33,543 nucleotides of DNA from Treponema sp. GTDB lineage: Bacteria; Spirochaetota; Spirochaetia; Treponematales; Breznakiellaceae. Numbering within the stretch: position 1 is the first letter of the stretch; every line of letters begins with the position of its first letter. The position numbers and the translations under genes are program-made. Below the pieces are notes generated by a model that saw only the letters and a program-made list of their open reading frames with translations, ran no database searches and had not been told where the DNA came from. Below are positions 3,401-27,455 of this stretch, in pieces. The stretch is taken from the NCBI GenBank assembly GCA_009787795.1, contig WQSP01000005.1, positions 1-33,543 of the forward strand, given 5' to 3'.

Positions 3401-4576
3401 GAAATAAACGCTATCGCAACGGCTTTGGGTTATTGGACAAACAGTACCAGAACAATTTTAAACGGCATCACCGCCGCACAGGTCGCAAGGATAGGTCTTG
3501 GCGAGTTTATCAGCAGCAACAATACACGGCAGACGATTACAGATACGCACATTATCGGCACAACAGGAACGGAATTGGGTGTGCTGGTTGAGAGACCCAT
3601 CATTCCCGGTTCCGGCACACCGGCAGACCCATTCAACATTTACAACGAGACAGAACTTCGCGCAGTTGGGCGCGGAACATACAACGGCATGAGCTGGTCG
3701 ACTTCGGCTCATTACCGTTTAATGAATAACATTACATTGACCGGCGGCAACTGGACACGCATTGGCGACATAGCAACAGGTTTCTCGGGAACATTTAACG
3801 GCAACGGAAAAACGATCGCCGGAATGACAGTTGCGGAAAGCTCAACAGCATATCAAGGTATGTTCTGTTTTATAAGCCCTGAAGGAGTTGTAAGAAATCT
3901 TGGGTTGGTGAATGTCAATATTACAGGCTTCAGAAATGTTGGCGGTATTGCAGGAGACAATGAGGGAACAATCGAAAACTGTTTTGTAACAGGCAGTATA
4001 ACCGGAACCGAAACCCAAATCGGCGGTATTGCCGGATACAACTTAGCGAGCGGCACCATTCAAAATTGTTATGTAATTGCCAACATTACAGGAGCAAATG
4101 ATTTGGGCGGTATTACCGGATATGCTTCTTTAGGCATAATACGAAATTGTTATGTTGCCGGAACCATTACAGGCGGCGTTACCAGTAATACTTTTGGTGT
4201 TGGCGGAATTTCCGGTTCCAATGCAATGTCAGTACAAAACACTGTCACATTACTTCAAAGCATAACAGTAACAAGCGGAACAGGTTACAACAAAATTACC
4301 GGCGTTAATTTAACTGGCGGCTCACTTGCAAATAAACGCGCATGGAGCGGCACGGTACTCTCTCCTGTAAAAACCGCTACAAGCAATTTAACAGGCGTTA
4401 ACGGTTTGGACGTAACTGCTGCCGTTTTAAAAACACAAGCCGCATGGCAAGCATCAGGCGCGGCTTTCAGCTTCGGCACAAGCGACGCTTCGCCCTGGGT
4501 CTGGCAGGACGGTAAGATGCCGCGTCTGCATTGGGAAACAGGCAGCAGGGATTGGCCTGCGTATTTTACGGATTAG
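485..4576 (+). CDS. Giant surface lipoprotein/adhesin: lipobox (LLTSC), Flg_new/InlB-type repeat, two beta-helix-like modules, GLUG-like C-terminal repeats
   Basis: 1363-aa ORF; signal peptide MKTNRRQGNKNLTTIITLFVVNFFLLTSC; YVTFDFNYGSLSEMEPV...GFAGWFTEAAAVNAFNFSQLVLNDITLYASW; repeated MSGGSI-GN / LEGSRITGH; GGIAGDNEGTIENCFVTGSITG. Confidence 0.85.
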   Translation: MKTNRRQGNKNLTTIITLFVVNFFLLTSCPEDMQFGEMVLPEGQGSLSLYIDEISSSRTILPKNTDWSSFSGTFEIDITGQPLITRNINNLSSPIVLDAGNYDITVTALDGTAPFARGQINITVIAGEPSAHIIRLRAIFEAGVAGTFGWNVTIPAAATGQMLITRIDGTPVGAEDLAQGANSGTRVLDCDYYFVTTTLKKTGRVDVIRRDVLHIYQNMTSVFAIEFADALFNNSLHYVTFDFNYGSLSEMEPVIHGEPIAKPSPDPQRNGYGFAGWFTEAAAVNAFNFSQLVLNDITLYASWIPNTASITLTVAQIENGDPIFSAPVVVSRNGIGVPAVFNVNVPSAGNYSHFKWEIAGVGLMPSFVSEGASASAFTINGANPNYGTLGGHVLKLTVTRNGILYQVNIPFTIVETIPPVEVSTNGVITGYADLASAFGAIGTNAGNYVITLGENQTMTANRTINSNQHITITGKDEMRTINCSTAGTNITMFSINSNASLTLGNNVTIQGRTEAGSGDLVFTSAGTFRMLEGSRITGHQVNSATSAAVYVGTSGRFEMSGGSIDGNNSTVTATSTNAAGGVIFTGLSGGIFIMTGGSITGNTQGPEASDMYHETVAAGSFTMSGSASIGALKMNAPNSTTGASVNIGEGWTGSIDRLNLRGTIADIAAVSQRWDNRMLFSGISSAKVNSIALGEFISSGNDRQAIVSLCFIGTSGNDLGRLLAFPATAAVTVSANGVTSGFLSLTAAFAFIGSQEGEFTVTLRENQTMTANRTINFNQNITITGSGGMRTIDGSTIGTAVVMFTLNFTSASLTLGNNITLQGRTNAGTAAVVNNTNGTFRMLEGSRITGHASSSATSAAVNITGASSVFEMSGGSIDGNNNTIGATNTNATGGVYFTGGTFTMSGGSITGNTQGTEASDTYHAVTTANRFTMSGNASIGTLKLNATSTTAGATMSIGTGWTGNITTLNLRGEINAIATALGYWTNSTRTILNGITAAQVARIGLGEFISSNNTRQTITDTHIIGTTGTELGVLVERPIIPGSGTPADPFNIYNETELRAVGRGTYNGMSWSTSAHYRLMNNITLTGGNWTRIGDIATGFSGTFNGNGKTIAGMTVAESSTAYQGMFCFISPEGVVRNLGLVNVNITGFRNVGGIAGDNEGTIENCFVTGSITGTETQIGGIAGYNLASGTIQNCYVIANITGANDLGGITGYASLGIIRNCYVAGTITGGVTSNTFGVGGISGSNAMSVQNTVTLLQSITVTSGTGYNKITGVNLTGGSLANKRAWSGTVLSPVKTATSNLTGVNGLDVTAAVLKTQAAWQASGAAFSFGTSDASPWVWQDGKMPRLHWETGSRDWPAYFTD
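512..552. repeat. Degenerate copy of a dispersed palindromic repeat inside the lipoprotein 1 signal peptide
   Basis: Inverted repeat aatttaaccac (515-525) / gtggtaaatt (542-551), one bulge; shares 'aagaattt(a)accac' with copies at 4600 and 11771. Confidence 0.5.
1192..1395 (+). repeat. Flg_new/InlB B-repeat-like domain in lipoprotein 1
   Basis: YVTFDFNYGS...GFAGWFTE...DITLYASW pattern. Confidence 0.7.
1738..2655 (+). repeat. Beta-helix module 1 (copy 1 of 4 across the two lipoproteins)
   Basis: Begins VEVSTNGVITGYADLASAFGAIGTNAGNYVITLGENQTMTANRTI, ends ...LGEFISSGNDRQAI...; same scaffold in four copies. Boundaries approximate. Confidence 0.8.
2670..3595 (+). repeat. Beta-helix module 2 (copy 2 of 4)
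   Basis: VTVSANGVTSGFLSLTAAFAFIGSQEGEFTVTLRENQTMTANRTI ... LGEFISSNNTRQTI. Boundaries approximate. Confidence 0.8.
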
Positions 4577-4586
4577 GGGAAAAGGG

Positions 4587-7500
4587 ATGAAGGGATTGAA
4601 GAATTTTACCACTAACTCGAACCACGAACCCGCGAAAAGAAATCGAACAGCAAGTTTGTGTTTGTTTGTGTGGTTCGTGGCTACTCTATTTCTCTTTGCT
4701 TCCTGTACTGAGCCTTTTACTGCCTGGAATATCGATCTCCCCGAAGGCAAAGGTTCTTTCTCGCTTTCGCTTTCTTCTGCGCGTACAATTTTACCGACCG
4801 CTCCCCTATTGGACGATTTTGCAAATTACACGCTTGCCTTTGTCGCGACAACAGGCGGCGAAGACGAAACCGTAAACAGAACAAACGCGACGCTTTTAAG
4901 CGATCCCATAATATTATATGCAGGGACTTATACTCTTACCGTTACAGCTTACAAGGCCGGAGATTTGATTGCCGCACGGGGAACGACAACCGGCATTGTG
5001 ATTACCCCGGGGCAAAACAATACGGCGAGCGTTACGCTTCATGCCCTTTTGGATGAACCGAACACAGAAGGAACATTCAAATGGAACATCACTCTTAACA
5101 CATCGCCTGTTACGGTAACTTTGGCAACAATGAAAATTTATAATTCGGACGGCACACAACAGGGAGCAAATGCAAATCTTTCCGCCTCGGGAACAAGCTC
5201 GGGCGAGAGAGCGCTTGCTTCGGGAATGTATACAGTTTCTTTCTATCTTGAGGGAACGGAGGAAGGCGAAAATAAAAGCGTAAAGTGGGACGAGCTTCTT
5301 TATGTATACGCAACTCTGGAAAGCGGTTTTGCCTATACCTTTACGGATGAACACTTTAAAAAAATCAATTGGAAAGTTACTCTCGACAATAATTTTGAAG
5401 GCGGCGGCAGCGTTACGCAATCTGTAATGCACGGCGGCACAATTTCGCGTCCATCGCCTGATCCGGCAAGATCCAAATATGACTTTATTGACTGGTATAC
5501 AACCAACGCCGCATTTACAACTCCTTATGATTTTGCCTCGCCTGTAACGAATGACTTAACCCTTTTCGCAAGATGGGAACTTACACCCGTTGTTACGGTA
5601 ACTGTTGACGGCGTAACCTCAGGCTACAATGACCTCGCCGCCGCGCTTGCATTTATCGGCACTCAGGCAGGGAACTTCACAGTAACGCTGAGAGAAGACC
5701 AGACGATGTCGGTAAACCGCACGATTGTCGCCAGTCAGAATATAACGATAACAGGTTCGGACGGGATGCGCACAATTAACGGCAACAATCTCCCCGCAAT
5801 TGCCATTATGTTTACAATAGGCAATGCCGGCGCAAGCCTGACGCTTGGCGAAAACATCACCGTACTGGGAAGAACCTCGGGGGGAGCGGGAGCTCTTGTG
5901 AGTGTGTCCGACGGCGGTACGTTTACCATGCAGGAAAATTCAAGAATACAAGGGCATAATATAAACAATACAGGATCAGGAGCTGTTCTTATAGGGAACG
6001 GCGGCACATTTAACATGATGGATAATTCCGTAATAACAGGCGTTATCGTTTCTACCGCTACAAGCGCCGCTGTTTGCCAGATCAACGCCAACACAACCTT
6101 CAATATGCACGGCGGACAAATCACCGCAAACAGCAATTCCATAACGGTGGCAACAACATCTGCGTCAGGCGGCGTATTTTTGACCAACGGTATTTTTAAC
6201 ATGACAGGCGGCAGTATTTCAGGCAATACGCATGTTGGAGAAGCCTCCGATGTGTACCATGCCATTACCGCCGCAGGCAGCTTTACCATGTCGGGCAATG
6301 CGCAAATCGGCGCGCTCAAACTGAACGCGACAAGCGAAACCGAAGGCACAAACATTACAATCGGAGCAGGCGGCTGGACAGGCAGTATTGAAACGCTTAA
6401 CTTGCGCGGCAACATTGCCGCTATCGCAACGGCTTCTGGTTATTGGACCGGTACCAGAGCAATTTTCAATGACATAAACTTTGCACAGATTAATAATATC
6501 GGGCTTGGAGAATTTATCAGCAGCAATAACGCGCGGCAGGCGATAGGCCCTGTTTACAGAATCGGCACTGAGGGCGCGAGTTTGGGAAGATTGGTTATAG
6601 ACGCGAATTTTGCGCCTGTAACCGTTACGGAAAACGGCGCGGGCACAGGTTATCTCAACCTTGCCGCCGCGTTTACCGCAATCGGCACGCAGGCAGGGAA
6701 CTTCACCATTACGCTGAGAGAAGACCAAACGATTACGGCAGAGCGCTCAATCAGAGCAGGTCAAAATATAACGATAGAGGGCTCAGGCGGGATACGAACG
6801 ATTTTCGGCAACACTCCTTCCATAGACAGTATTCATATATTTGCGATAGGCAATGCCGACGCATGCCTTACACTGGGCAATAATGTTACCATACAGGGAA
6901 GAACCCAGCCTGCCGCTGGAGCTGTTATCAATAATACAAACGGCACGTTCAGAATGCTTCCCGGTTCAAGGATTACAGGACATCGAAGCAACGGCGGAAC
7001 CTCGGCGGCAGTTAATATAATCGGCGCAAACTCTGTTTTTGAAATGTCAGGCGGAAATATAGACGGTAACAATACTTCTATACCGTTTGCTACAACAACT
7101 GCCTCAGCGGGCGTGTATTTTACAAACGGGACTTTCATTATGACGGGCGGCAGCATTACGGGCAATACGCAAGGGGGAACGGATGCCTCCGATGTATATT
7201 TTGGACCAACCGTTGCCGCAAATTATAACACCGCCAGTTTGCAAATATCCGGCTCTGCCAATATCGGCGCGCTCAAACTGAACGCAAACAGCACAACCGC
7301 AGGCGCGACTGTAAGTATAGGCACAGGCTGGACGGGCAGTATTACCACGCTCAACCTGCGGGGGGACCAGATCGCTATCGCAACGATTATGGGTTATTGG
7401 ACCGGCAGTGACAGAATCATTTTTAACGGCATCACCGCCGCGCAGGTCGCAAGAATAGGGCTTGGAGAATTTATCAGCAGCAATAATGCAAGGCAGACGA

Positions 7501-8603
7501 TTGGCCCCGATTACATGATCGGCACAACTGCGCCGGATTTGGGCAGGCTGATTGTAAGACCTGACGGCACAGCGGCGGCCCCATTCCTAATTTACAACGA
7601 GACAGACCTGCGGGCAGTCGGGAATGGAACATACAACAACATGAACTGGTCTCTTTCTGCGCATTACCGGTTGGTAAACAATATTACATTGACGAGCGGC
7701 AACTGGACACCGATTGGAAATACAGACAATCACTTTACAGGTTCCTTTGACGGAGACTCAAAAACAATTTCAAACTTGACTATAACGGCAACAACAAATA
7801 ATCAGGGAATGTTTGGGGTTATCGGTGTAGGCGGAGCGGTAAGAAATCTAGGTCTTGATATGAATATAACAGTAACCGGAACCGGCATTACTCATGCAGG
7901 CGGCATTGCAGGTATGAACGGAGGCATAGTCGAAAACTGTTATACAACAGGAAGCATTAATGGCGTTAGACGTGTCGGCGGTATTGTGGGTCAAAACGGT
8001 TTGGAAAATCAGGCAGGACCGGGAGCCGCAGTCAGATTGTCCCATTCAACGGCGGCAGTAACGGCAAGCGAAATAGTGGCAGGCGGTGTTGTAGGACGAA
8101 ATGTTTTTTACGGCGTAATAGAAAACTGTTATTCAACTGGCAATGTCACCGCCAATTTTACGGGAGCGGATGTAAGGGCAGGCGGCATAGTGGGTTACAG
8201 CGGTAACGGTTCTGATATCAATATTGGAGGATCTGTCAGGTTTTGTTATGCCACAGGAAATGTCAGCACGCCGAATGCCACAGGTACAGGATGGGCGGGC
8301 GGCATCGCAGGTGATTTTACAAGAAGCACAGCAGAAGGCAATGTGGCATTAAATCAATCCGTAACCGGTGTTCCCGGCAATCGTGTTTTCGGTACTTTTC
8401 ACGCAAACAGCGTAGCTTCCAATAATTTTGCCCGCGCGGCAATGTCGGTAAACGGAGCAACGGTAACAACAGGAACAGGCGAAGCAACTGCTCATGGTGA
8501 AAATGTCGCGGCAGCCCAATGGACTAGCGTACAATGGTGGCGCGATCGCGGCTTTACCGCTACGGCATGGCCCGAAAGCAGACTGCCTTTGACACTGCCG
8601 TGA
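4587..8603 (+). CDS. Second giant surface lipoprotein/adhesin, paralog of 485..4576
   Basis: 1338-aa ORF starting 10 nt after the previous stop; lipobox LFASC; same domain order (Flg_new, two beta-helix modules, GLUG-like repeats). Confidence 0.85.
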   Translation: MKGLKNFTTNSNHEPAKRNRTASLCLFVWFVATLFLFASCTEPFTAWNIDLPEGKGSFSLSLSSARTILPTAPLLDDFANYTLAFVATTGGEDETVNRTNATLLSDPIILYAGTYTLTVTAYKAGDLIAARGTTTGIVITPGQNNTASVTLHALLDEPNTEGTFKWNITLNTSPVTVTLATMKIYNSDGTQQGANANLSASGTSSGERALASGMYTVSFYLEGTEEGENKSVKWDELLYVYATLESGFAYTFTDEHFKKINWKVTLDNNFEGGGSVTQSVMHGGTISRPSPDPARSKYDFIDWYTTNAAFTTPYDFASPVTNDLTLFARWELTPVVTVTVDGVTSGYNDLAAALAFIGTQAGNFTVTLREDQTMSVNRTIVASQNITITGSDGMRTINGNNLPAIAIMFTIGNAGASLTLGENITVLGRTSGGAGALVSVSDGGTFTMQENSRIQGHNINNTGSGAVLIGNGGTFNMMDNSVITGVIVSTATSAAVCQINANTTFNMHGGQITANSNSITVATTSASGGVFLTNGIFNMTGGSISGNTHVGEASDVYHAITAAGSFTMSGNAQIGALKLNATSETEGTNITIGAGGWTGSIETLNLRGNIAAIATASGYWTGTRAIFNDINFAQINNIGLGEFISSNNARQAIGPVYRIGTEGASLGRLVIDANFAPVTVTENGAGTGYLNLAAAFTAIGTQAGNFTITLREDQTITAERSIRAGQNITIEGSGGIRTIFGNTPSIDSIHIFAIGNADACLTLGNNVTIQGRTQPAAGAVINNTNGTFRMLPGSRITGHRSNGGTSAAVNIIGANSVFEMSGGNIDGNNTSIPFATTTASAGVYFTNGTFIMTGGSITGNTQGGTDASDVYFGPTVAANYNTASLQISGSANIGALKLNANSTTAGATVSIGTGWTGSITTLNLRGDQIAIATIMGYWTGSDRIIFNGITAAQVARIGLGEFISSNNARQTIGPDYMIGTTAPDLGRLIVRPDGTAAAPFLIYNETDLRAVGNGTYNNMNWSLSAHYRLVNNITLTSGNWTPIGNTDNHFTGSFDGDSKTISNLTITATTNNQGMFGVIGVGGAVRNLGLDMNITVTGTGITHAGGIAGMNGGIVENCYTTGSINGVRRVGGIVGQNGLENQAGPGAAVRLSHSTAAVTASEIVAGGVVGRNVFYGVIENCYSTGNVTANFTGADVRAGGIVGYSGNGSDINIGGSVRFCYATGNVSTPNATGTGWAGGIAGDFTRSTAEGNVALNQSVTGVPGNRVFGTFHANSVASNNFARAAMSVNGATVTTGTGEATAHGENVAAAQWTSVQWWRDRGFTATAWPESRLPLTLP
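4600..4685. repeat. Dispersed palindromic repeat copy inside the lipoprotein 2 signal peptide
   Basis: gaattttaccac lead, then ccacgaacc (4622-4630) / ggttcgtgg (4672-4680), a perfect 9-bp inverted repeat. Confidence 0.7.
5368..5580 (+). repeat. Flg_new/InlB B-repeat-like domain in lipoprotein 2
   Basis: WKVTLDNNFEGGGSVTQSVMHGG...KYDFIDWYTTNAAFTTPYDFASPVTNDLTLFARW. Confidence 0.7.
5587..6590 (+). repeat. Beta-helix module 3 (copy 3 of 4)
   Basis: VTVTVDGVTSGYNDLAAALAFIGTQAGNFTVTLREDQTMSVNRTI ... LGEFISSNNARQAI. Boundaries approximate. Confidence 0.8.
6613..7555 (+). repeat. Beta-helix module 4 (copy 4 of 4)
   Basis: VTVTENGAGTGYLNLAAAFTAIGTQAGNFTITLREDQTITAERSI ... LGEFISSNNARQTI. Boundaries approximate. 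Confidence 0.8.
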
Positions 8604-15099: not shown

Positions 15100-16941
15100 T
15101 TAATGGGAAAATTTCAAGGTGAATTCGTTTGTCCAGCTTTCGTTCGGTTCAAGGGAAATCTGAAAACCCGGGAAGATCCCCGTTGCCTGATATATGCCGT
15201 TTTTGCAGCAAGGAACAAGACATCCTGAAAAACCGTTTTTGGAAGAAAGAACAATCTGCACTTCGTTTTTCAGGTCGTGTATTTTAAGGTTATCCGTATC
15301 AAACTTGCTTTCCAAATGTATATCTTTTCCCGTTTTGTCGATTGTATAAAAGCGAACGTATTCGTCGCCGATTCCTGCAAACGAAAAATCGATTTTTGTT
15401 ACAAACCTGAATTTTTGGCATTCGGTTCCCGTATTTTTCAACTGATACGAAACGCAAATGGCCTCTTTTTTAAGAAGAAAACATTTTTGTATTTCCATAC
15501 AGTTAAACGGAATGTTTTCTGCCGCATTGGAAAGTTTAAAGCACGATTTTCCCTTTCTGTCCTGGGACAGGGCTTCATATTGTTCGTTATGGCACAATCT
15601 TGAATTTTTTCCGTCAAGAAAACCAGAATCGTCAATTTCCAAATCCTGCGGCGCAATAATGTCTGCAAATGCCGTTTTCCTCCCGTTTTCGTCGCAGCCG
15701 CAGTCAAGATAATTCCATTCTTTGGGAAGATAATCAAGTTCGAATATGCCGGCTCCCCTAAGCTGAATGTAACAGTTTATTTTAACATCCTGAAAAAGAT
15801 GTTCCTTAATGCCGTCAAAATCAAAATCATGCTGAACAAGGGAAGAAACAAATTTTCCGTTATCCCTTGTAAGTCTTTCCGCGCGCAAAAGAGAGCTGTA
15901 TGCGGATTTTCTAAGGGAGCTTTGAAATTTGCCCGCTTCGGAAAAAAGACACGAATCCTGCGCCTTCCATAATTCTTCCCTTGCGTTTAACTTTCTTGCC
16001 TTGTCGCCCTTTAGCTGATTTATCAAAACATTCGTAAAAATCATTTTGGAGTAAATTCCGTTCGCTTCCGCATGTTCAATCAAAAAATTACGCGGCGAAA
16101 AATTTTCGATAAGCCCGCATGAATCCTTAAAATTTGTTTTCTTGTATTTTTTTTGCGTTTTTAATATCTTGGAAGGCAGAATTGTTTCTACAATGTTTTC
16201 GGAAAGCGATATTTCCTCGAAAAACCTGTTCCATGCCGTATCGGGAGCCTCTTCCTGCGAAGACGCAACTTTTTGCGGAAATACGCTTATTATTTTCACT
16301 TCATTGGAGGCAGGACATTCCGTTTCGAATTTGTTTTTAAGCTCGACAAAAACCTGCGAAAAACTTTTTTGTTCAAGGTCTTTTTCTATCGGCAACGAAA
16401 CGGGAAAAACCGTAACAAGTTTTCCCTGATCTTCTGTTATGCATGGAGAAAAAAGATCTGCGCCATTCATTCCCGCCCTTAAAAATTGATCCCCCGACAA
16501 AAAAGTATAATTCATGTCGCCTGAAGAAATGGCGGCCGCCAAATTCTGTTCCCAGACAAAATCCGGCATCCAGCAACCAAGCGGTCTTTTTCCAAAGTGT
16601 TTTCTAAGATATGTTGTTAAAAGTTCAATCTGCCCTATTCTGTCCGCAAGAGGAATAAGCGGAAAGCTCGGTTCGTAAAATCCGCCGCCAAGCAACTCAA
16701 CCTGTTTTCTTGATACCATGTCTTCGATAAGCATTAAAAATTCCGAATGGTTTCGTTCTATCCAGTACAAAAGAACGCCCGAATAATGCAGAACCGCATG
16801 AATGTTCGAATAACGGTACAAATTCGAAACAAACGGCTTAATTTTATTAAGGTATGCAAATTCAAAATCGGCTTCTCTTGCGCCTGAAGGAACATGGGCA
16901 TGAGAACCAAGAATCATATTGATTTTTTTTTCTTCTTTCAC
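15100..16941 (-). CDS. GH57-like protein (4-alpha-glucanotransferase/DUF1926-type fold), probably catalytically degenerate
   Basis: 613 aa from GTG; ELLGGGFYEPSFPLIPLADRIGQIELLTTYLRKHFGKRPLGCWMPDFVWEQNLAAAI matches the GH57 N-terminal scaffold; GTGA overlap with the upstream gene. Confidence 0.75.
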   Translation of the reverse strand: MKEEKKINMILGSHAHVPSGAREADFEFAYLNKIKPFVSNLYRYSNIHAVLHYSGVLLYWIERNHSEFLMLIEDMVSRKQVELLGGGFYEPSFPLIPLADRIGQIELLTTYLRKHFGKRPLGCWMPDFVWEQNLAAAISSGDMNYTFLSGDQFLRAGMNGADLFSPCITEDQGKLVTVFPVSLPIEKDLEQKSFSQVFVELKNKFETECPASNEVKIISVFPQKVASSQEEAPDTAWNRFFEEISLSENIVETILPSKILKTQKKYKKTNFKDSCGLIENFSPRNFLIEHAEANGIYSKMIFTNVLINQLKGDKARKLNAREELWKAQDSCLFSEAGKFQSSLRKSAYSSLLRAERLTRDNGKFVSSLVQHDFDFDGIKEHLFQDVKINCYIQLRGAGIFELDYLPKEWNYLDCGCDENGRKTAFADIIAPQDLEIDDSGFLDGKNSRLCHNEQYEALSQDRKGKSCFKLSNAAENIPFNCMEIQKCFLLKKEAICVSYQLKNTGTECQKFRFVTKIDFSFAGIGDEYVRFYTIDKTGKDIHLESKFDTDNLKIHDLKNEVQIVLSSKNGFSGCLVPCCKNGIYQATGIFPGFQISLEPNESWTNEFTLKFSH

Positions 16942-17531
16942 CCTACACTAATCATCCTAAAAAGCAGTAAAGAACCTGTTGTAAAAACAAGCGACAGTAA
17001 CCCCATGGCGATCAGAATCAACGGTTTTCCGCGCAAAAAAACCGGAACGGCTTCCAATGCGGCGCGGTAACGAATCTCCCTTATAATTGTATTTACAAGA
17101 AAAATGCCCGCCGTAAATCCAAACGACAAAATGACAGCCTCAAGAAAACCGTTTGCAAGATTGATGCAGATAAAGACCGAAGCTGCCGTAACTCCCGCAG
17201 GGAAACTGATTATCGACTCGTCTTTTATTTCTTTTTTCATTATAAACTTGAATATCAAATATTCAAGCCCCGAATAACAGGCGGCGCTTAGCGGAAACAG
17301 TATAATGTAAATAAAAATGCCCTGAATCAGCGAAAACAGAATATGTGCAAAGAAAAACCACAATAGGATTATCGATGCAAATATGATGCCCGATTTTATC
17401 AATGCCGACAAATCCATCGATCCTTTGGATTCGACAACTCCCTTTATTCCAAGTCCGCACTGCAAGACAAGATTCATCGTAAATCCCGAATAAATCAATA
17501 AAATCAAAACTGTTATTCCTTCCATTTTCAT
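16938..17531 (-). CDS. RnfA/RnfE-family-like membrane subunit (divergent; rnfA position)
   Basis: SGFTMNLVLQCGLGIKG at the N-terminus; GFLEAVILSFGFTAGIFLVNTIIREIRYRAALEAVPVFLRGKPLILIAMGLLSL resembles the RnfA C-terminus. Confidence 0.65.
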   Translation of the reverse strand: MKMEGITVLILLIYSGFTMNLVLQCGLGIKGVVESKGSMDLSALIKSGIIFASIILLWFFFAHILFSLIQGIFIYIILFPLSAACYSGLEYLIFKFIMKKEIKDESIISFPAGVTAASVFICINLANGFLEAVILSFGFTAGIFLVNTIIREIRYRAALEAVPVFLRGKPLILIAMGLLSLVFTTGSLLLFRMISVG

Positions 17532-18172
17532 TCTCCCTTATTCCCTTTGGAAGACTGATAAAGACAGATAATATATCCAAGCAAAAGCAAAGCTCCCGCG
17601 GAAGAGCCGAAAATTCCAATCGGGAAAAACGCGCCTTCCGTAAAATACATGATTGTCAGCATTCCCTGAAATGTTCCGGGAAACGAAAGCGAGCAATACG
17701 AGAGAGGTTCTCTTACGATTGAAAAAACGATAATCAAACCGGCAAGGGATGCGGCTTGCGAAACGGCATCCGAAACATGTTCAAAAACATCGGGGCGCGC
17801 ATTTTCGGGAAGCACCTGCTCCACTATCCCCGAACTTGCGCAAAAAAGCGGAACAAGACAAAGAAGCATGAAATTTTCAAATACCACAAACGGGCAAAGA
17901 AGCCAAAAAAGGAAAATGTAAATTGCGCCGAAAAAAGACGCCAAACATGTATAGATGACAGCCTTTCCCTTTACGGGAAAAATTTTATCGCCTGCCGAAT
18001 TCAACAGCGAGGAAAAAACAAGCGCGGTAAAACCGTATACCCAGAACAGACATCCTGCAATTGTAATTGCCCACGAAAGACGCGCGGAAGCCATTATTAA
18101 AAGCCCGGCTCCCATCAATCCCCCAAGAGGAGAGAGAGAACCCCAAAAAGAATATTGCCGGCTTAAACTCAT
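17528..18172 (-). CDS. RnfE-position membrane protein (divergent)
   Basis: Multi-TM protein in rnfE position between rnfG-like and rnfA-like genes; ATGA overlaps on both sides. Confidence 0.5.
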   Translation of the reverse strand: MSLSRQYSFWGSLSPLGGLMGAGLLIMASARLSWAITIAGCLFWVYGFTALVFSSLLNSAGDKIFPVKGKAVIYTCLASFFGAIYIFLFWLLCPFVVFENFMLLCLVPLFCASSGIVEQVLPENARPDVFEHVSDAVSQAASLAGLIIVFSIVREPLSYCSLSFPGTFQGMLTIMYFTEGAFFPIGIFGSSAGALLLLGYIICLYQSSKGNKGE

Positions 18173-18576
18173 TGTGTTTTTCCTTCTATTCTGTCAGTGT
18201 ACATTTTGACAATACTGTCTGGCAAATCTCCAAAAACCTGAACGGCATGAGCGCTTAAGGGAAGAATTTCCCTAACTTCGCCTGTTTGCGCGACAACAGC
18301 TCCAAGAGGAATCAAAACGCCGTCCTGAAACGCGCCAAAAATAAACATTTTATCGTCTGAATATTGAATCGAAAACCAATAACCCAAAAGACCCGCCTTT
18401 GTGCTTTTGTCTTTTATATGCGCCAACAGATAACGCGAATCGCCGTTTGATGTCAAAACATAATTTGCGGAGCGCATCAGATAACTTGCCTGAAGAGGCG
18501 TTGTCAGAATCCATAAAAGCGAAATAAGCAGTAAAAGTCCTGTCACCCAGCCGAAAAAAAGCGCCTTGTCTCTCAT
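18169..18576 (-). CDS. RnfG-position short membrane-anchored protein
   Basis: 135 aa, one N-terminal TM; called by position; no [S/T]GAT flavinylation motif. Confidence 0.45.
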   Translation of the reverse strand: MRDKALFFGWVTGLLLLISLLWILTTPLQASYLMRSANYVLTSNGDSRYLLAHIKDKSTKAGLLGYWFSIQYSDDKMFIFGAFQDGVLIPLGAVVAQTGEVREILPLSAHAVQVFGDLPDSIVKMYTDRIEGKTQ

Positions 18577-19598
18577 ACGGGATTCTCCTTGACAGATGCC
18601 GTATTTTTTCGCGAAAGAAAAATTCTTTCCTCAAGAAGCCTGATAATCGGCGTTATGCAATTTACAAGCGCAATGGCGATAAAACAGCCGGAATAATCCA
18701 TGCATTTGTACCTGAAGAACCATGAAAGTATTGCGCCTAACAATACCGCAAGTATTATCCCCGGTTTTAATTTTGCGCTGCTTGCAGGTTCCGCCGCAAG
18801 AATGAAAGCTGCCGCAATTGTTCCGCCCGAGAACAAACCGTATAACAAATCGCCGTTCCAAAGCATCATCGAATCGCCCGAAAAACGAATCAAAAAACCG
18901 TAAACGGAAAGGAACAAAAGCGGAATCCAGCCGCGGTTTATTCCGATAGCCGTTATTATAATCGTGCCGATTAAAAGCGCAAATATTCCCCTGTCCGCAA
19001 TAATGCCGGGTCCCGAGTTGAAAAGCAAATCGACATAACCGGAAGGAAGCTGAACTTCCGTAACGGAAAAAATCGTGCTGTTGAAAAATTCGGTAACGGT
19101 GTTGTCAATTGCGCTCAAGTCGCCCGTAAATACCATATCGGTAACAGAGGAACCGCCATCCTGCGCATTTTTATATGCGGCTGGCCATGAAAAACGAATG
19201 AAGAGCCATCCGCCAAGAGCCGGGTTCAACCAGTTTGCACCCAATCCTCCAAAACTGTATTTGACGACAGTAATCGCAAAAGCGGTGCCGAATATCACAT
19301 AAACCGGGCTTAGCTGATTTGGAAGAAGCATTGTCAGAATCATCGCTGTAGCGGCTGCGCTTCCGTCTTTTATTTTTGCGCCCCTGCTTGTTCTGCATGT
19401 CAGCAAAAATTCCGTCAATATGGCTGTCGAAAGCGCGGTAAGGGCAATTATCAAAGAACTGCCGCCGTCGCCCAAAGACGATTGCAGAACGCATGCAAAT
19501 GCGCAGCCGCAAATAAGCCACATCCGTCCCGTGCTTGGAACGGAAATGTTAATTTGGGGTTTATGCGAAAATATCCTTTTTGCCTCAGACATTTGCAT
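18573..19598 (-). CDS. rnfD: RnfD/NqrB-like membrane subunit
   Basis: KDGSAAATAMILTMLLPNQLSPVYVIFGTAFAITVVKYSFGGLGANWLNPALGGWLFIRFSWP matches the RnfD core. Confidence 0.85.
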   Translation of the reverse strand: MQMSEAKRIFSHKPQINISVPSTGRMWLICGCAFACVLQSSLGDGGSSLIIALTALSTAILTEFLLTCRTSRGAKIKDGSAAATAMILTMLLPNQLSPVYVIFGTAFAITVVKYSFGGLGANWLNPALGGWLFIRFSWPAAYKNAQDGGSSVTDMVFTGDLSAIDNTVTEFFNSTIFSVTEVQLPSGYVDLLFNSGPGIIADRGIFALLIGTIIITAIGINRGWIPLLFLSVYGFLIRFSGDSMMLWNGDLLYGLFSGGTIAAAFILAAEPASSAKLKPGIILAVLLGAILSWFFRYKCMDYSGCFIAIALVNCITPIIRLLEERIFLSRKNTASVKENPV

Positions 19599-20886
19599 CC
19601 TCCCCCGATTTTTCCATAAAAGTTTCGAGTAACGGAAGCGCCGACGGACACACTATTTTGCAGCATCCGCAGCCGTGACAGCCTGTAGTGCCCGCAAATT
19701 CTATTTCCTGCATCCTTATGCGCTTGTAAATATCCTGCGGATCAAGACCCATCGGGCACACTGCCCTGCACTCGCCGCAATTTATGCAATTCTGAAGACC
19801 GTGAATTGCCGCCTGGGATTTTGCCATCGCGACTATCGCATAACACGTTTTGCCTACAGGTTCGTCAAGATACATCACTTCCCTTCCCGACAAGGGAGAG
19901 CCTGTAACAATTCTTTCGGGAGGTTCTATAAATCCGCCGCATTGTTCTATCACTTCGCTTATGCGCGTTCCGATTCTCACTTTTAAAATTTGCGGTTTTT
20001 TTACCGCAGTGCCTCCGACTGCCACGTATCGATCCAGAATCGGTTTTTTATGCACAACTGCGTCATAAGCCGCGACAAGAACCGCAGGACCAAGAATCAA
20101 AATGGAACCCAAATTCACGCCTTCTTTTTTTTCGTAATCGCGCAGGGCAAGTTCCAGTTCCCGTTTGTTTCTTTGCGGATATTTTGATCCTGTCATTATA
20201 AGAGTTGACGGAGTTTCCAATCTTGCCGCTTCCGAAATAAGAAGCTGACCCAATTCCTTTTCCTTGTGAGAAACCGCAAAAACTATATTTGCAACCTTAA
20301 AACACGATTTTGCGACAATTGCCGCGCCGTCGATTACCGCCTTAATCCTGTCATGACAAAGCGCGTAATCCGCAACAAGCCAAGGATCGTCAAAAACGCA
20401 TCTTACCACAAGCGAAATTTTTTCGTTTTCTTTTCTTGCATTTGATATCAAATCGGAAAGGGGCATTTCGGAATTTTCCATTTCCACTATTCCGTAATCG
20501 GAAATAATGCGCTGAAGATCGTATCCGTTCAATCCGTTCCAAATCATTATTTCGTCTTTTTTTCCGAGCCTTTCGAATGAGCCTTCCATTTTAATCACAA
20601 AGGCATCGTTGTTGATTCCGTCCCTGTCTTTCCATGTCACTTTTCTTATTATTCTGCCGGGAACCGTTGCATGCACATTCGCAGCTCCTGCTCCCGAAGC
20701 TCTTGCAACAAGCATGCCTTCGCGAACCGTTTCTCCAATGGAGACGACAGGGAAAACCTTTCTTGCCCAATTTCCAAGTTGAATTACGGAAATGGCGGGA
20801 AGAAAAGCGTTTACGGCTTGAGATTTTTCCGGTGCCGACGAGTCGTCATAGGGAAGTCCTCCCCTTGGAAAAGAATATACCTTCAT
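19585..20886 (-). CDS. rnfC: RnfC-like subunit with two 4Fe-4S motifs
   Basis: CINCGECRAVCPMGLDP and CHGCGCCKIVCPSALP; GPAVLVAAYDAVVHKKPILDRYVAVGGTAVKKPQ...VRIGT as in RnfC. Confidence 0.87.
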   Translation of the reverse strand: MKVYSFPRGGLPYDDSSAPEKSQAVNAFLPAISVIQLGNWARKVFPVVSIGETVREGMLVARASGAGAANVHATVPGRIIRKVTWKDRDGINNDAFVIKMEGSFERLGKKDEIMIWNGLNGYDLQRIISDYGIVEMENSEMPLSDLISNARKENEKISLVVRCVFDDPWLVADYALCHDRIKAVIDGAAIVAKSCFKVANIVFAVSHKEKELGQLLISEAARLETPSTLIMTGSKYPQRNKRELELALRDYEKKEGVNLGSILILGPAVLVAAYDAVVHKKPILDRYVAVGGTAVKKPQILKVRIGTRISEVIEQCGGFIEPPERIVTGSPLSGREVMYLDEPVGKTCYAIVAMAKSQAAIHGLQNCINCGECRAVCPMGLDPQDIYKRIRMQEIEFAGTTGCHGCGCCKIVCPSALPLLETFMEKSGEDANV

Positions 20887-20887
20887 T

Positions 20888-22336
20888 TTATGCGTCCTTT
20901 CGGCTTCCTCTCATGTTTTTTTTATTATACAACAATTTATTGTTTATAATCAATCCCGGCAAAACGAACAGCAACAATACAAGGAGCGACAAATTGTCGC
21001 CGATTCCGCCCAAAGCGCGCGAATCCGTTGTTGTCCTTGTGCCGCTGTTTACTGTATTGAAAAATTCCATCAGATATTTCAGCGGAAACGGCGGATAATC
21101 GCCCGGCCTGATTTCTGCAGATGCCGCATTTGCGTTCATTACGGGAAATCCGTCAGAATCGGGATAAAAAACAGGGAAAACATCCGAATCCGCGCCAAAG
21201 CGTCTTACGGAAAAAGACGTTTGAAATTCGATATGATCAAAATAATCCTTTTCTTCGATTATTATGTCGAATCTGTTTGAATTGTCGTAGGAACCCGACA
21301 TGCGCGGCGTAAAAATCATTGTTACAAAAGCGCCGACAATAAACGGCAAAATATAAATCGGAAAAACAAATTCCGGGAAACGCCGTTTTACAATTGTTAT
21401 CGGATTGAATCTTTTGTGCTCTACGCCCGAGAACGACACAATTTTAAGCGAAAAGAAAAAAACTGCAAAAGAAACAACCGAAGCCGCGATTAAAAACAAA
21501 AACTGCAATTGCGAAAAAATTACCAATACTGCAAATGCCAAAACGAATACGGGCAGAAAAAACCAGTAATTTTTATACGGCAGAATTATTTCCTTGTACA
21601 TTTCCGCCATTCTTTTTTTAAAATATTTTGAATGCGGACGCGTCGGGTTTACAAGATCTCCCAAAGGTTCCTTTAAAAGAATGAAAAGTCCGTAAAGAAG
21701 GGCTGCGCTTCCTATTCCCGCCGCTCCAAAAAAACCAAGCGAAGACAAAACGGGAATCATCGGTATAATGTTTACGATGCTGCGGTGAACTTTTCTGTTT
21801 CTGTAAATAAAAATCAAAAGCAATGCGGAAGCTGTCGTATAAACGGCAAAAAAGAGAAAAAGCGGCCGCCCTATACCGAAATAATTAACGGAAAAGGGAA
21901 TATCGCGCATCAGTTCCGCCAATTTTTTGTCAAGCGCGTCCGAATTCCAATTGCCCGCCATTAGCGGAATGTATGCGTAACGCTTTCCGTTTCTTACGAA
22001 TATTTCCCGCACTTTGTCGGCATATCCGTCATTGCGCGGATCAAAATCAAAAACTCTTGTGCCGTACTCGTCAAGCGGAATCCTCAAAATGGAATCGAAT
22101 CCGTCCAGAAAAACCCACTGCGTGGATTCGCAGACAGGCTCTCCGACAAAGTACAAACCTGTCGATTGGATAATGGATTTTAACGGTTTGTCTTCGATTG
22201 CGTCTTCATCAACAGAAAGAACCGCATATCCGCCCCTGAACTCTTCAAACCCCATGGAAAAACCGATAAAGTGAAGGGCCATTGCCGCGATGAGCGAAAC
22301 CAAACTTGCTGCAATAACGGAGCGAAAGAAAGACAT
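20888..22336 (-). CDS. Multi-pass membrane protein with large extracytoplasmic regions, unknown function
   Basis: 482 aa, one N-terminal TM, hydrophilic region, then several TM segments; starts the run directly upstream of rnfC (1-nt gap). Confidence 0.8.
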   Translation of the reverse strand: MSFFRSVIAASLVSLIAAMALHFIGFSMGFEEFRGGYAVLSVDEDAIEDKPLKSIIQSTGLYFVGEPVCESTQWVFLDGFDSILRIPLDEYGTRVFDFDPRNDGYADKVREIFVRNGKRYAYIPLMAGNWNSDALDKKLAELMRDIPFSVNYFGIGRPLFLFFAVYTTASALLLIFIYRNRKVHRSIVNIIPMIPVLSSLGFFGAAGIGSAALLYGLFILLKEPLGDLVNPTRPHSKYFKKRMAEMYKEIILPYKNYWFFLPVFVLAFAVLVIFSQLQFLFLIAASVVSFAVFFFSLKIVSFSGVEHKRFNPITIVKRRFPEFVFPIYILPFIVGAFVTMIFTPRMSGSYDNSNRFDIIIEEKDYFDHIEFQTSFSVRRFGADSDVFPVFYPDSDGFPVMNANAASAEIRPGDYPPFPLKYLMEFFNTVNSGTRTTTDSRALGGIGDNLSLLVLLLFVLPGLIINNKLLYNKKNMRGSRKDA

Positions 22337-22343
22337 AAAATGC

Positions 22344-22841
22344 CTATTTCATAAAAAGGTAAAAGCAAATCGCAATGAATATTCCAAGGCAGGATCCCAC
22401 AAGCACTTCCAAAGGCGTATGCCCCTGCACTTCTTTTACGGAATGAAAATCAAGACCTGTTAATTTTGCCGATTGCTTGCCAAGATTGTTAAGGGCTTTT
22501 GCCTGCAAACCTGCCGCTCTTCTGACTCCGACAGAATCGCGAAGAACGACCATCGCAAAGAACAAACAAAAAATGAAAAAATCGGAATCGATGCCGTGCC
22601 TGATGCCTGCCGATGTTGCAAGAGCGCAAACTGTCGCAGAATGGCTGGAAGGCATTCCGCCGGTACGCCATATCATTGTCTCTATTGCATCACGCCTGGT
22701 TTTGTGTTTGAAGGTTATCAGATAAAAAACCATCTTTAGAACTTGAGCAACACACAAGCTTGATACAGTGGACAGAAACATGGGATTAAAAAACAACGAT
22801 TTTATCGCCATTGCGGCATTCATTTTTTTATCATCCATCAA
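22344..22841 (-). CDS. Divergent PAP2 family (DUF212/YuiD-like) protein
   Basis: RTGGMPSSHSATVCALATSAGIRHGIDSDFF...VLRDSVGVRRAAGLQAKALN...VKEVQGHTPLEVLVGSCLG. Confidence 0.88.
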   Translation of the reverse strand: MMDDKKMNAAMAIKSLFFNPMFLSTVSSLCVAQVLKMVFYLITFKHKTRRDAIETMIWRTGGMPSSHSATVCALATSAGIRHGIDSDFFIFCLFFAMVVLRDSVGVRRAAGLQAKALNNLGKQSAKLTGLDFHSVKEVQGHTPLEVLVGSCLGIFIAICFYLFMK

Positions 22842-24102: not shown

Positions 24103-24417
24103 TCAAAGGAATAAAATCAGGAACGCCACGATTAATCCCCAAAGACAGATTCCTTCCGCAAGACCTACAAGCGGAAGCGCTTTCCCGAAAAGGTCCGGGT
24201 TTTCGCTCATGGCTCCCATTGCGGCGGAGCCAATGCGTCCTACCGCAATGCCGCCTGCAATACAGGAAATGCCAACCGATAAGGCTGCCGCAATGTATTT
24301 TAATGAAGAAGCGATCGATGCGCTCTCTTCGCCTGCGCCATGCTCCTGCGCAAATGCACCAAACCCGAAAAAACATCCAATAAGAGCCGCGCACAAAACA
24401 ATTACAATCCTTTTCAT
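24103..24417 (-). CDS. V/A-type ATPase proteolipid subunit K
   Basis: Leader-like N-terminus then two-TM hairpin GISCIAGGIAVGRIGSAAMGAMSENPDLFGKALPLVGLAEGICLWGLIVAFLI. Confidence 0.9.
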   Translation of the reverse strand: MKRIVIVLCAALIGCFFGFGAFAQEHGAGEESASIASSLKYIAAALSVGISCIAGGIAVGRIGSAAMGAMSENPDLFGKALPLVGLAEGICLWGLIVAFLILFL

Positions 24418-26426
24418 ATCCTCTCCTTATAATTTATGCGAAACGGAGCAAACTCCACGCCTGTTTCCAATAAAAATTTATTGAAAAATTCATAATATTG
24501 CAAGCGGATAACCTGTATGGTTACGATTAATCCTTCAAGCGCTATAATAATTGCGTTTCCAAAAACAAATATAAAAGCTGCCAGAAATGATGCGCCAATG
24601 CCGTATCCTGAAATTTTATCGGTAAAATAAAAAACGATAAACGAAAAAACGGCGTGCGCAAGCGCAAACGCTCCAACGCGCACAAAACTTATCGTGTTGG
24701 AAAAATACCCTGAAACCGTTTCCAATATTTCAACAAACCCCTGCATGACAAACGCAAACACGCCTTCTTTTTGTGAAGGTTTTTCGCCCGAAACAATTCC
24801 ATAAACTGCAGGACCGAAAAGAATGAACAAAAGAGGAACCAAAAGAGCGAAAACATCATGTGTTTCAAATTGACCGTTAAAAAAAAGAATTTTTATAACG
24901 ACAAACAGGGCATACCAGAACAATAAAAGTCCCGAAAGCCCTGTTCTGGAAAAAAACGCAGTCTTGTATTTTTTTAAAATTATGCGGTTATATATATTTA
25001 TTATTAACCCCAAAGAATTTATAACAACTCCGATTGCGATTGTAAAACCGAAAAAATACAACAATTTGGTAATGCTTCCGCCTTCTTCTGCAAGCGGAAG
25101 AATGTGCAGGATTCTGTCTTTCGGATACCCAAAAAGCGCTTCTGTTACGGCTCTTGTAGGACCTATAAGAATTTTTTCGTTTGTAAAAACAGATCCTGCA
25201 AGAAACCCCATTATCATGGAAGATATTCCGACAGAAACCAAAACAGTCGAATATTTTTTAAGTTTGGAAAGTTTTGAACCGCCCGTTTTGATTATTATTC
25301 CCAATAAAAGCAGGACAAACCCCTGCCCTGCGTCTCCAAACATTATTCCAAACATGAGCGTAAAGAAAAATGCGACAAGCACTGTAGGGTCGACAGTTCC
25401 GTACAAAGGAGCGCCGTAAGAAAAAACAACGCTTTCAAATCCCCTGACAAACGCATTGTGCTTCATCGAAACGGGCACTTTTTCCTTTCCGCTTTGAATT
25501 GCGGGAACTTCATCGGGCAAAAACGATCGAACCGCGATTCTTCCGTTTGTTATTTCGTTTAACCCCCTGACAAGCAGAGACGACGAATCGGCGGGTGTCC
25601 AACCCGAAAAATGATAAAGATTCGTTGTTGTTGTAAACCTTGCCTTTATTTCTTCCACAAGCATTGCAATTCGCCATGAAGCGATGTGTTTTTTCAATTC
25701 AAGCGCGCATCTTTTTGCCAATTGCGCTTTTTCTTCTTTTATGCTTTCAATTTCTTTTTCCATCTTAAAAAACTGATCGATTAGTCTTTTAAGGATTTCT
25801 GCGGGAATGCCAAGATATTTTTGCGGCAGCTCAACAGGTTCAAACTGCGCTTTTTTCAATTGGGTGTCAAGCGCAAAGCGTCCTTTTTTTGAGCTTGCGG
25901 CAAGAATTCTGTCATCGTCATCCAATGAAATGATGACCGCCCTGTTTCCCATATTTTCGCGTAACTGCGAAATGCCGTTTGGATCCAAACGCCCGACCCT
26001 AAGCGTAAGATACGAAAGATGTTCAAAATCGGAAAACGGCACATTCATTTTGGAAAAGGCCTTAACTTCGTTGATTGTTTCCTTTATGCGCTGTTTTTCA
26101 TTGGAAGCCTTGTATTCCCTGTCTTTCATCGATTCGATAATCGAACAAAGGGATATTGCCGCCGCTTCCCCTTCTTTTCCCGGAATGGAAACTTCATCGT
26201 TGTATTTTGAAAGGTCCGTGTTTTTGTTTACGACTCCAAGATAATCGCCCGCAGAGTATAACCTTTCGATTAAATCCCTTATGTGCAAAACATCCTGTCC
26301 TTCGTAAACAATATCGCTGCCCGGAAACTGAATTGACGCTTTTCGCCCGAGAAAATTCAAAACTGCGTCCATGTCTTCCTTAAAGACGGTTAACTCCATA
26401 TAAAGCATTTTTCGCGGAAGGAACAT
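24414..26426 (-). CDS. V/A-type ATPase subunit I
   Basis: 670 aa; LNFLGRKASIQF, FFTLMFGIMFGDAGQGFVLLLLG, FVRVGAFALAHAVFSFI. Confidence 0.93.
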   Translation of the reverse strand: MFLPRKMLYMELTVFKEDMDAVLNFLGRKASIQFPGSDIVYEGQDVLHIRDLIERLYSAGDYLGVVNKNTDLSKYNDEVSIPGKEGEAAAISLCSIIESMKDREYKASNEKQRIKETINEVKAFSKMNVPFSDFEHLSYLTLRVGRLDPNGISQLRENMGNRAVIISLDDDDRILAASSKKGRFALDTQLKKAQFEPVELPQKYLGIPAEILKRLIDQFFKMEKEIESIKEEKAQLAKRCALELKKHIASWRIAMLVEEIKARFTTTTNLYHFSGWTPADSSSLLVRGLNEITNGRIAVRSFLPDEVPAIQSGKEKVPVSMKHNAFVRGFESVVFSYGAPLYGTVDPTVLVAFFFTLMFGIMFGDAGQGFVLLLLGIIIKTGGSKLSKLKKYSTVLVSVGISSMIMGFLAGSVFTNEKILIGPTRAVTEALFGYPKDRILHILPLAEEGGSITKLLYFFGFTIAIGVVINSLGLIINIYNRIILKKYKTAFFSRTGLSGLLLFWYALFVVIKILFFNGQFETHDVFALLVPLLFILFGPAVYGIVSGEKPSQKEGVFAFVMQGFVEILETVSGYFSNTISFVRVGAFALAHAVFSFIVFYFTDKISGYGIGASFLAAFIFVFGNAIIIALEGLIVTIQVIRLQYYEFFNKFLLETGVEFAPFRINYKERI

Positions 26427-27455
26427 TTAAGACACCTCCAGCAAATCGAAAACTTTTGAGCTGCTGATTCCAAGAGACAAACCTTCGGCAACGCTTGTCA
26501 AAAGATCCTCTTCGTACAATTTTAATTTTACAAAACAATAAAACGCGCTTACGGACATCGGTGAACTGTGAAAATGCCTTATATAAAGATGATGCAGGTA
26601 CTTGGAAGCCGCATTTTGAAAATGACGCGGATCGATCTTCCAATGGGCGGATGTTCCTTCTTCGTTTAGAAATTTTTCCCATCTCCAGCCGCGCCAGTCT
26701 TCCCTTACATCAAGGGAAAAATGCAAAGAAGATCTTGCCTCTGCGCAGACAGTCGCGCGTTTTTGACTGACTTTTCCGAACATGTTGATATTCATGATGT
26801 ATTTCGCGGTCTCGGCTTCGCTTTTATTGTAATAGGTGCGGATACGCATTACCCAAAGACAGTTTCTGATTGATATTTCGTCCGCGATTAAACGCGCGGC
26901 GATTTCCCTGTCTTCGGCTTCAAGCTGGGACAAGCTGTCAATTAAACCCTGATAATATCTGTGATCCAATTTTGTTTCGATATCAACAAGTTCCATTCCT
27001 TTTTTTACGGACCTTAACTCCTGCGAAAGCAAATGTTCAAAATCGGTTTTTCTTAACATTGCGCCGACATCGGGAAACGCGTCAAAACGAATTGTGCCAA
27101 AGCGCCCGATATTGCTGATAATGGGCAATTCGGTTCTTCCGCCTGCAATGGAACCCAAACATTCGACAAAGCCCGAATATTCGATTCCTTTAAGGAGACG
27201 CACCAAAAGTTTCGGCGGCTGTGAAAATGAATTTACAATCGATAAAATATGGCGCACGGATCGTTTTACAATGCGCCTTTCTAGATCGGGAAGCAATTCC
27301 CTTCCCGGAAGTTCCCTGTACAAATCGGGAAAAATGTTTCTGTCGAGTTCATTCAGGGTATGGATGCCTTTAAGGGAAGACATTCTTTTCCCCATGAAGG
27401 ATTTTCCAATGAGCCAACTTGCTTTTGCATACGCATAACCCGAGTCAGTCCACAT
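26427..27455 (-). CDS. V/A-type ATPase subunit C (AC39/d family)
   Basis: YAYAKASWLIGKSFMGKR; DHRYYQGL; ISIRNCLWVMRIRTYYNKS; LLTSVAEGLSLGISSSKVFDLL. Confidence 0.8.
   Translation of the reverse strand: MWTDSGYAYAKASWLIGKSFMGKRMSSLKGIHTLNELDRNIFPDLYRELPGRELLPDLERRIVKRSVRHILSIVNSFSQPPKLLVRLLKGIEYSGFVECLGSIAGGRTELPIISNIGRFGTIRFDAFPDVGAMLRKTDFEHLLSQELRSVKKGMELVDIETKLDHRYYQGLIDSLSQLEAEDREIAARLIADEISIRNCLWVMRIRTYYNKSEAETAKYIMNINMFGKVSQKRATVCAEARSSLHFSLDVREDWRGWRWEKFLNEEGTSAHWKIDPRHFQNAASKYLHHLYIRHFHSSPMSVSAFYCFVKLKLYEEDLLTSVAEGLSLGISSSKVFDLLEVS

Follow-up and report, generated by a model that had tools for sequence, protein, structure and literature searches.

Does a five-gene relative of the Rnf ion pump that appears to have lost its redox cofactors still work as an Rnf complex, or does it do something else? 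We addressed this question for a minus-strand operon (16938-20886) of Treponema sp. in what is called here the window, i.e. the whole stretch of DNA analysed (33,543 nucleotides). The earlier note had read this operon as an Rnf-like C-D-G-E-A set lacking rnfB and most cofactor sites, with only the two RnfC [4Fe-4S] motifs intact. Our analysis confirmed this observation with one correction, given below. Termite-gut treponemes, and apparently the syphilis spirochaete as its only such complex, keep this operon, which has lost nearly every part known to carry electrons through the membrane, yet is preserved by selection and probably does a new job.

We first examined the five genes and their neighbours. 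The C and D genes overlap by 14 nt, whereas D/G, G/E, E/A and A/GH57 overlap by 4 nt, GH57 directly following the A gene where RnfB is absent. The RnfC-like protein was recognised by TIGR01945 (E 7e-63; 212.6 bits, below its curated cut-off of 246) and by the PDB RnfC 7zc6_C (4e-49), and the RnfD-like protein by PF03116 (1e-47) and PDB 9eri_D (3e-16). The E and A proteins had no Pfam hit and are RnfE and RnfA homologues only at the profile level: their family profiles matched canonical RnfE and RnfA by HHalign (96-97% probability, E 3e-9 and 2e-10), and the A profile found A. woodii RnfA in the PDB (9eri_A, 6e-9). In contrast, the protein in the G position had no detectable sequence homology to RnfG, and HHalign with canonical, intermediate and Treponemataceae-like sets gave no bridge to it. 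Its AlphaFold model is confident (pLDDT 91) and predicts an RnfG-like topology, but RnfG came only third in a Foldseek search, with a non-significant E of 0.33; its assignment to the G position rests on synteny only. The membrane protein that ends one base before rnfC gave only weak, non-significant RND/SecDF-like fold hits.

Features of the operon and its neighbours, with positions in the window
Feature	Position	Strand	Length (aa)	Remarks
RnfC-like subunit	19585..20886	-	433	two [4Fe-4S] motifs kept, NADH/FMN loop lost
first RnfC [4Fe-4S] motif	19753..19788	-		CINCGECRAVCP, residues 367-378
second RnfC [4Fe-4S] motif	19645..19680	-		CHGCGCCKIVCP, residues 403-414
rebuilt former FMN loop of RnfC	20380..20403	-		RCVFDDPW, residues 162-169, in place of NGxECEPY; highly conserved across Breznakiellaceae
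RnfD-like subunit	18573..19598	-	341	N122 and E270 (riboflavin/Na+ site) and D202 (Glu185 equivalent); covalent-FMN Thr replaced (D160)
RnfG-position protein	18169..18576	-	135	predicted: one TM helix, beta domain, C-terminal helix; no flavinylation motif, RnfG homology not shown
RnfE-like membrane subunit	17528..18172	-	214	[2Fe-2S] ligand pair lost
RnfA-like membrane subunit	16938..17531	-	197	[2Fe-2S] ligand pair lost
GH57 glycoside hydrolase / 4-alpha-glucanotransferase-type gene	15100..16941	-		usual 3' neighbour of the locus, also of intact Rnf
membrane protein directly upstream of rnfC	20888..22336	-	482	also upstream of GH57-linked intact Rnf; no Pfam family
DUF212 (divergent PAP2) gene	22344..22841	-		upstream, syntenic in relatives

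We then compared the cofactor sites column by column, using the site identities of A. woodii (PMC11889175) and C. tetanomorphum (PMC9588780). The RnfC NADH/FMN motifs (GGAGFPTHVK and NGxECEPY), identified from the canonical alignment and from their probable correspondence to NuoF-like folds, the RnfD covalent-FMN threonine (T156 in A. woodii), the RnfG flavinylation threonine and the four RnfA/E [2Fe-2S] cysteines were missing. The RnfC [4Fe-4S] motifs, however, appear not to be the only survivors: of the RnfD Asn/Asp pair that binds riboflavin, and is a postulated Na+ site, the Asn is kept and the Asp is replaced by Glu, which leaves open whether the pair as such is retained. We also considered the possibility that ligands had moved to shifted positions, but no invariant Cys or His was present in the E, A or G family alignments, so that at the sequence and profile level no replacement was found.

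To find out whether the missing parts are encoded elsewhere, the rest of the genome was searched. The window is contig 5 of a 1.83-Mb, 71% complete assembly, in which contig 77 carries a complete canonical rnfC-D-G-E-A-B with all tested cofactor sites and contig 28 carries one ApbE. The stripped operon is therefore a paralogue of an intact complex in this organism, and the normal rnfB and rnfG present in this genome belong to a separate, self-sufficient operon.

Close relatives of this RnfC were found in named Treponema MAGs and in Breznakiella homolactica RmG30. Across Treponematales and some neighbouring families the locus is syntenic (DUF212 - 482-aa protein - C-D-G-E-A-[B] - GH57), with single parts missing in some genomes. 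Two relatives (G256 and G267) carry a canonical Rnf with RnfB at this same GH57-linked locus. Interestingly, intermediates exist: one (G245) keeps RnfB and all four A/E cysteines but has lost the RnfC NADH/FMN loop and the RnfD and RnfG flavin sites, another (G063) keeps RnfB and three cysteines, and several Treponemataceae-like genomes keep a short RnfB-like gene with a single CxxCxxCxxxC motif but no A/E ligand set. In a concatenated RnfC+RnfD tree all stripped operons fell in one clade (UFBoot 100), with G256 and G267 branching outside it in the same part of the tree, whereas the canonical paralogues of the same genomes formed separate lineages.

In 49 stripped operons all eight RnfC Fe-S cysteines were intact in 49, and none kept the NADH/FMN motifs. 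All four A/E [2Fe-2S] cysteines were kept in one operon, three in one and at most two in the rest, RnfA cysteines being found only in those first two. In 28 Breznakiellaceae operons, the RnfD residues equivalent to C. tetanomorphum Asn124, Glu185 and Asp248 were N in 28/28, D in 28/28 and D/E in 28/28 (D in 8 and E in 20). In most Treponemataceae-like genomes these polar residues are changed (N to S, D to W), so the ion pathway is not universally kept; the universal element is the Fe-S-bearing RnfC on a membrane scaffold.

The above findings raised the question of whether the operon is a ruin. In the two pairs of relatives with unsaturated synonymous change, dN/dS was about 0.1-0.3 for C, D, E and A and 0.3-0.5 for the G-position gene, showing purifying selection. 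In RnfC, 35 canonical invariants are lost, while 35 other positions are at least 90% conserved in the family but absent from the canonical sequences compared; one cluster of these is the rebuilt loop, which lies exactly where the canonical FMN loop was. FDDPW was present in 77 of 80 further loci, although this count is biased because one of the two search patterns contained it.

Twelve genomes at least 90% complete carry the stripped operon as their only detected Rnf, with no second RnfD, no RnfB over the family cut-off and no RnfA/E match to PF02508, except for one weak match (1e-7) in one of them (G138) that is probably its own stripped gene. There RnfB is absent and no A/E ligand remains, while RnfC keeps 8/8 cysteines and RnfD keeps N and E. 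A supply of missing parts from a canonical operon is thus ruled out as a general answer. One of the twelve (G056) matches Treponema pallidum: its genome has 1,139,633 bp and its rnfD-like gene lies at 173.9-174.9 kb, the place given for tp0151 (PMC7162541).

Taken together, these data support the proposal of the earlier note that this is a neofunctionalised Rnf paralog with a different electron route, or an ion-transport or structural complex no longer doing NADH:ferredoxin chemistry, although the two alternatives are not fully separated by our work. It is very likely from sequence that the operon derives from an intact rnfCDGEAB-GH57 locus, has lost the sites listed above and is under purifying selection. 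A. woodii mutants of the A/E cluster cysteines, of RnfG T185/Y113 and of RnfD N123/D249 abolish activity (PMC11889175), from which it follows that the complex cannot run the known ferredoxin-to-NAD U-shaped electron path or its [2Fe-2S]-driven Na+ stroke. Beyond this point the mechanism is inferred. We hypothesize that a soluble low-potential donor (ferredoxin or flavodoxin), or the redox state of the cell, reduces the exposed RnfC Fe-S clusters, and that this changes the conformation of the RnfD (and RnfA/E) scaffold and so gates, rather than drives, ion flow through the retained RnfD pathway; in C. tetanomorphum, RnfD Asn124, Asp248 and Glu185 line the postulated Na+ passage (PMC9588780). 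The gating step has no direct evidence and may not apply to the whole clade, given the Treponemataceae-like RnfD changes; in species with both operons, sharing of RnfB/RnfG from the canonical complex cannot be excluded, and unknown cofactors could sit elsewhere. The explanation as a whole, including gating, is tentative. It is possible, but no more than that, that the operon represents a third Rnf-superfamily complex beside Rnf and NQR, an Fe-S-gated ion conductor (or redox sensor) without a transmembrane electron chain, conserved across treponemes and the only Rnf-type complex of the syphilis spirochaete.

Other readings appear less likely. The RnfC Fe-S clusters and the RnfD riboflavin pair are neighbours in the Rnf chain (PMC11889175, PMC9588780), and could form a short relay at the cytoplasmic face that passes electrons to riboflavin in RnfD and on to an unknown acceptor without crossing the membrane, the A/E/G subunits being only scaffold. 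This is the strongest of the rivals but still unlikely, as the pair is lost in most Treponemataceae-like genomes that keep the operon and no acceptor or new redox module is encoded at the locus. Somewhat less probable is a structural or regulatory complex without transport, in which the RnfC Fe-S domain is a redox sensor or docking platform; the universality of the RnfC motifs as the only redox element and the usual GH57 neighbour are in its favour, while the strict conservation of charged RnfD channel residues in Breznakiellaceae suggests transport or flavin binding.

We consider it improbable that the operon still encodes a redox-driven Rnf pump, with RnfB/RnfG borrowed from the canonical operon or, in T. 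pallidum, with a flavinylated lipoprotein and flavodoxin in place of RnfG/RnfB. In its favour, the window genome has a full canonical set and ApbE, the T. pallidum-sized genome has FMN_bind domains near 192 kb and 623 kb, and Tp0171 is listed among proteins with the ApbE motif (PMC12052999). However, the membrane [2Fe-2S] ligands and the RnfD covalent FMN site are gone and cannot be supplied by a lipoprotein, and the genomes with only the stripped operon lack canonical RnfA/E and RnfB above cut-off. A decaying, functionless remnant is very unlikely: despite the many site losses and an in-frame stop in rnfC of one relative (G288), frequent frame breaks were not seen, dN/dS is well below 1, new residues have been fixed, the eight cysteines persist in all 49 operons, and the operon survives in a 1.14-Mb reduced genome without canonical Rnf.

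If this view is right, annotations of the operon as 'Rnf' in many treponemes are misleading, since it cannot do Rnf chemistry by the known route. No paper describing it was found in the limited literature searched, which did not extend to the source paper for the T. pallidum RNF (Deka et al. 2015, mBio). With the Rnf complex of A. woodii, C. tetanomorphum and A. vinelandii it shares the C-D-G-E-A order, homologous C, D, E and A subunits and the two RnfC [4Fe-4S] motifs, but it has no RnfB, no NADH/FMN site, no covalent flavin sites, no A/E [2Fe-2S] ligands and no recognisable RnfG, and we do not class it as a functional Rnf member. The 'noncanonical RNF' proposed for T. pallidum (PMC7512555; tp0151 is called rnfD in PMC11371664) is very probably the orthologous operon; it is treated there as a flavin-based pump using flavodoxin (PMC7512555, PMC11717252), whereas the sequence lacks the covalent flavin and [2Fe-2S] sites that the known mechanism needs. 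Na+-NQR (nqrABCDEF) has also been proposed to be an rnf duplicate that lost rnfB (PMC4014512), but NQR lost the RnfC Fe-S clusters, kept the membrane flavins and [2Fe-2S] and gained NqrF, while the spirochaete derivative kept the RnfC clusters, lost the membrane redox chain and has no NqrF-like module at the locus. The operon series shows step by step how a redox pump can be stripped while its scaffold is retained, a mirror image of the proposed birth of NQR.

The Rnf-like operon lies near V-type ATPase subunits, namely the C-ring (PF00137), subunit I (PF01496) and AC39 (PF01992), from which it is separated by a plus-strand RluD-like pseudouridine synthase gene. The same window also carries two very long adjacent ORFs (1363 and 1338 aa) with Listeria-Bacteroides repeat and GLUG motifs; these are probably surface proteins and are apparent paralogues. 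Directly upstream of rnfC, in both stripped and GH57-linked intact Rnf operons, we observed a gene for a 482-aa membrane protein without Pfam family, and its AlphaFold model gave weak RND/SecDF-like fold hits. This gene was, however, missing in the T. pallidum-sized genome (G056) and in G245, a relative with an intermediate operon. A GH57 glycoside hydrolase gene follows Rnf at this locus even where Rnf is canonical, as in the relatives G256 and G267, an old and unexplained linkage.

Coordinates of features in the window and in related genomes
Sequence	Positions	Feature
window	485-8603	two adjacent long ORFs
window	15100-16941	GH57 glycoside hydrolase gene
window	20888-22336	482-aa membrane protein gene
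window	24103-27455	V-type ATPase subunits
locus L084 (G288)	about 6724-6785	in-frame stop in rnfC of the stripped operon
G056 contig 1	192278-192514	first FMN_bind domain
G056 contig 1	622681-622899	second FMN_bind domain
RnfC-like protein (P0001)	residues C163 and about C177	newly conserved cysteines

Among the relatives, rnfC of the stripped operon is split by an in-frame stop in G288, while the neighbouring genes look intact. In several genomes of the f2 (Treponemataceae-like) group, short RnfB-like genes with a single CxxCxxCxxxC motif remain next to stripped Rnf (loci L082, L224, L226-L229 and L234). In addition, two FMN_bind domains were found in the T. pallidum-sized genome, the first of which lies where Tp0171 would be expected. 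Interestingly, comparison of the RnfC-like protein with the canonical RnfC sequences showed two cysteines near the old FMN loop that are newly conserved in Breznakiellaceae RnfC and absent from the canonical sequences at these columns.
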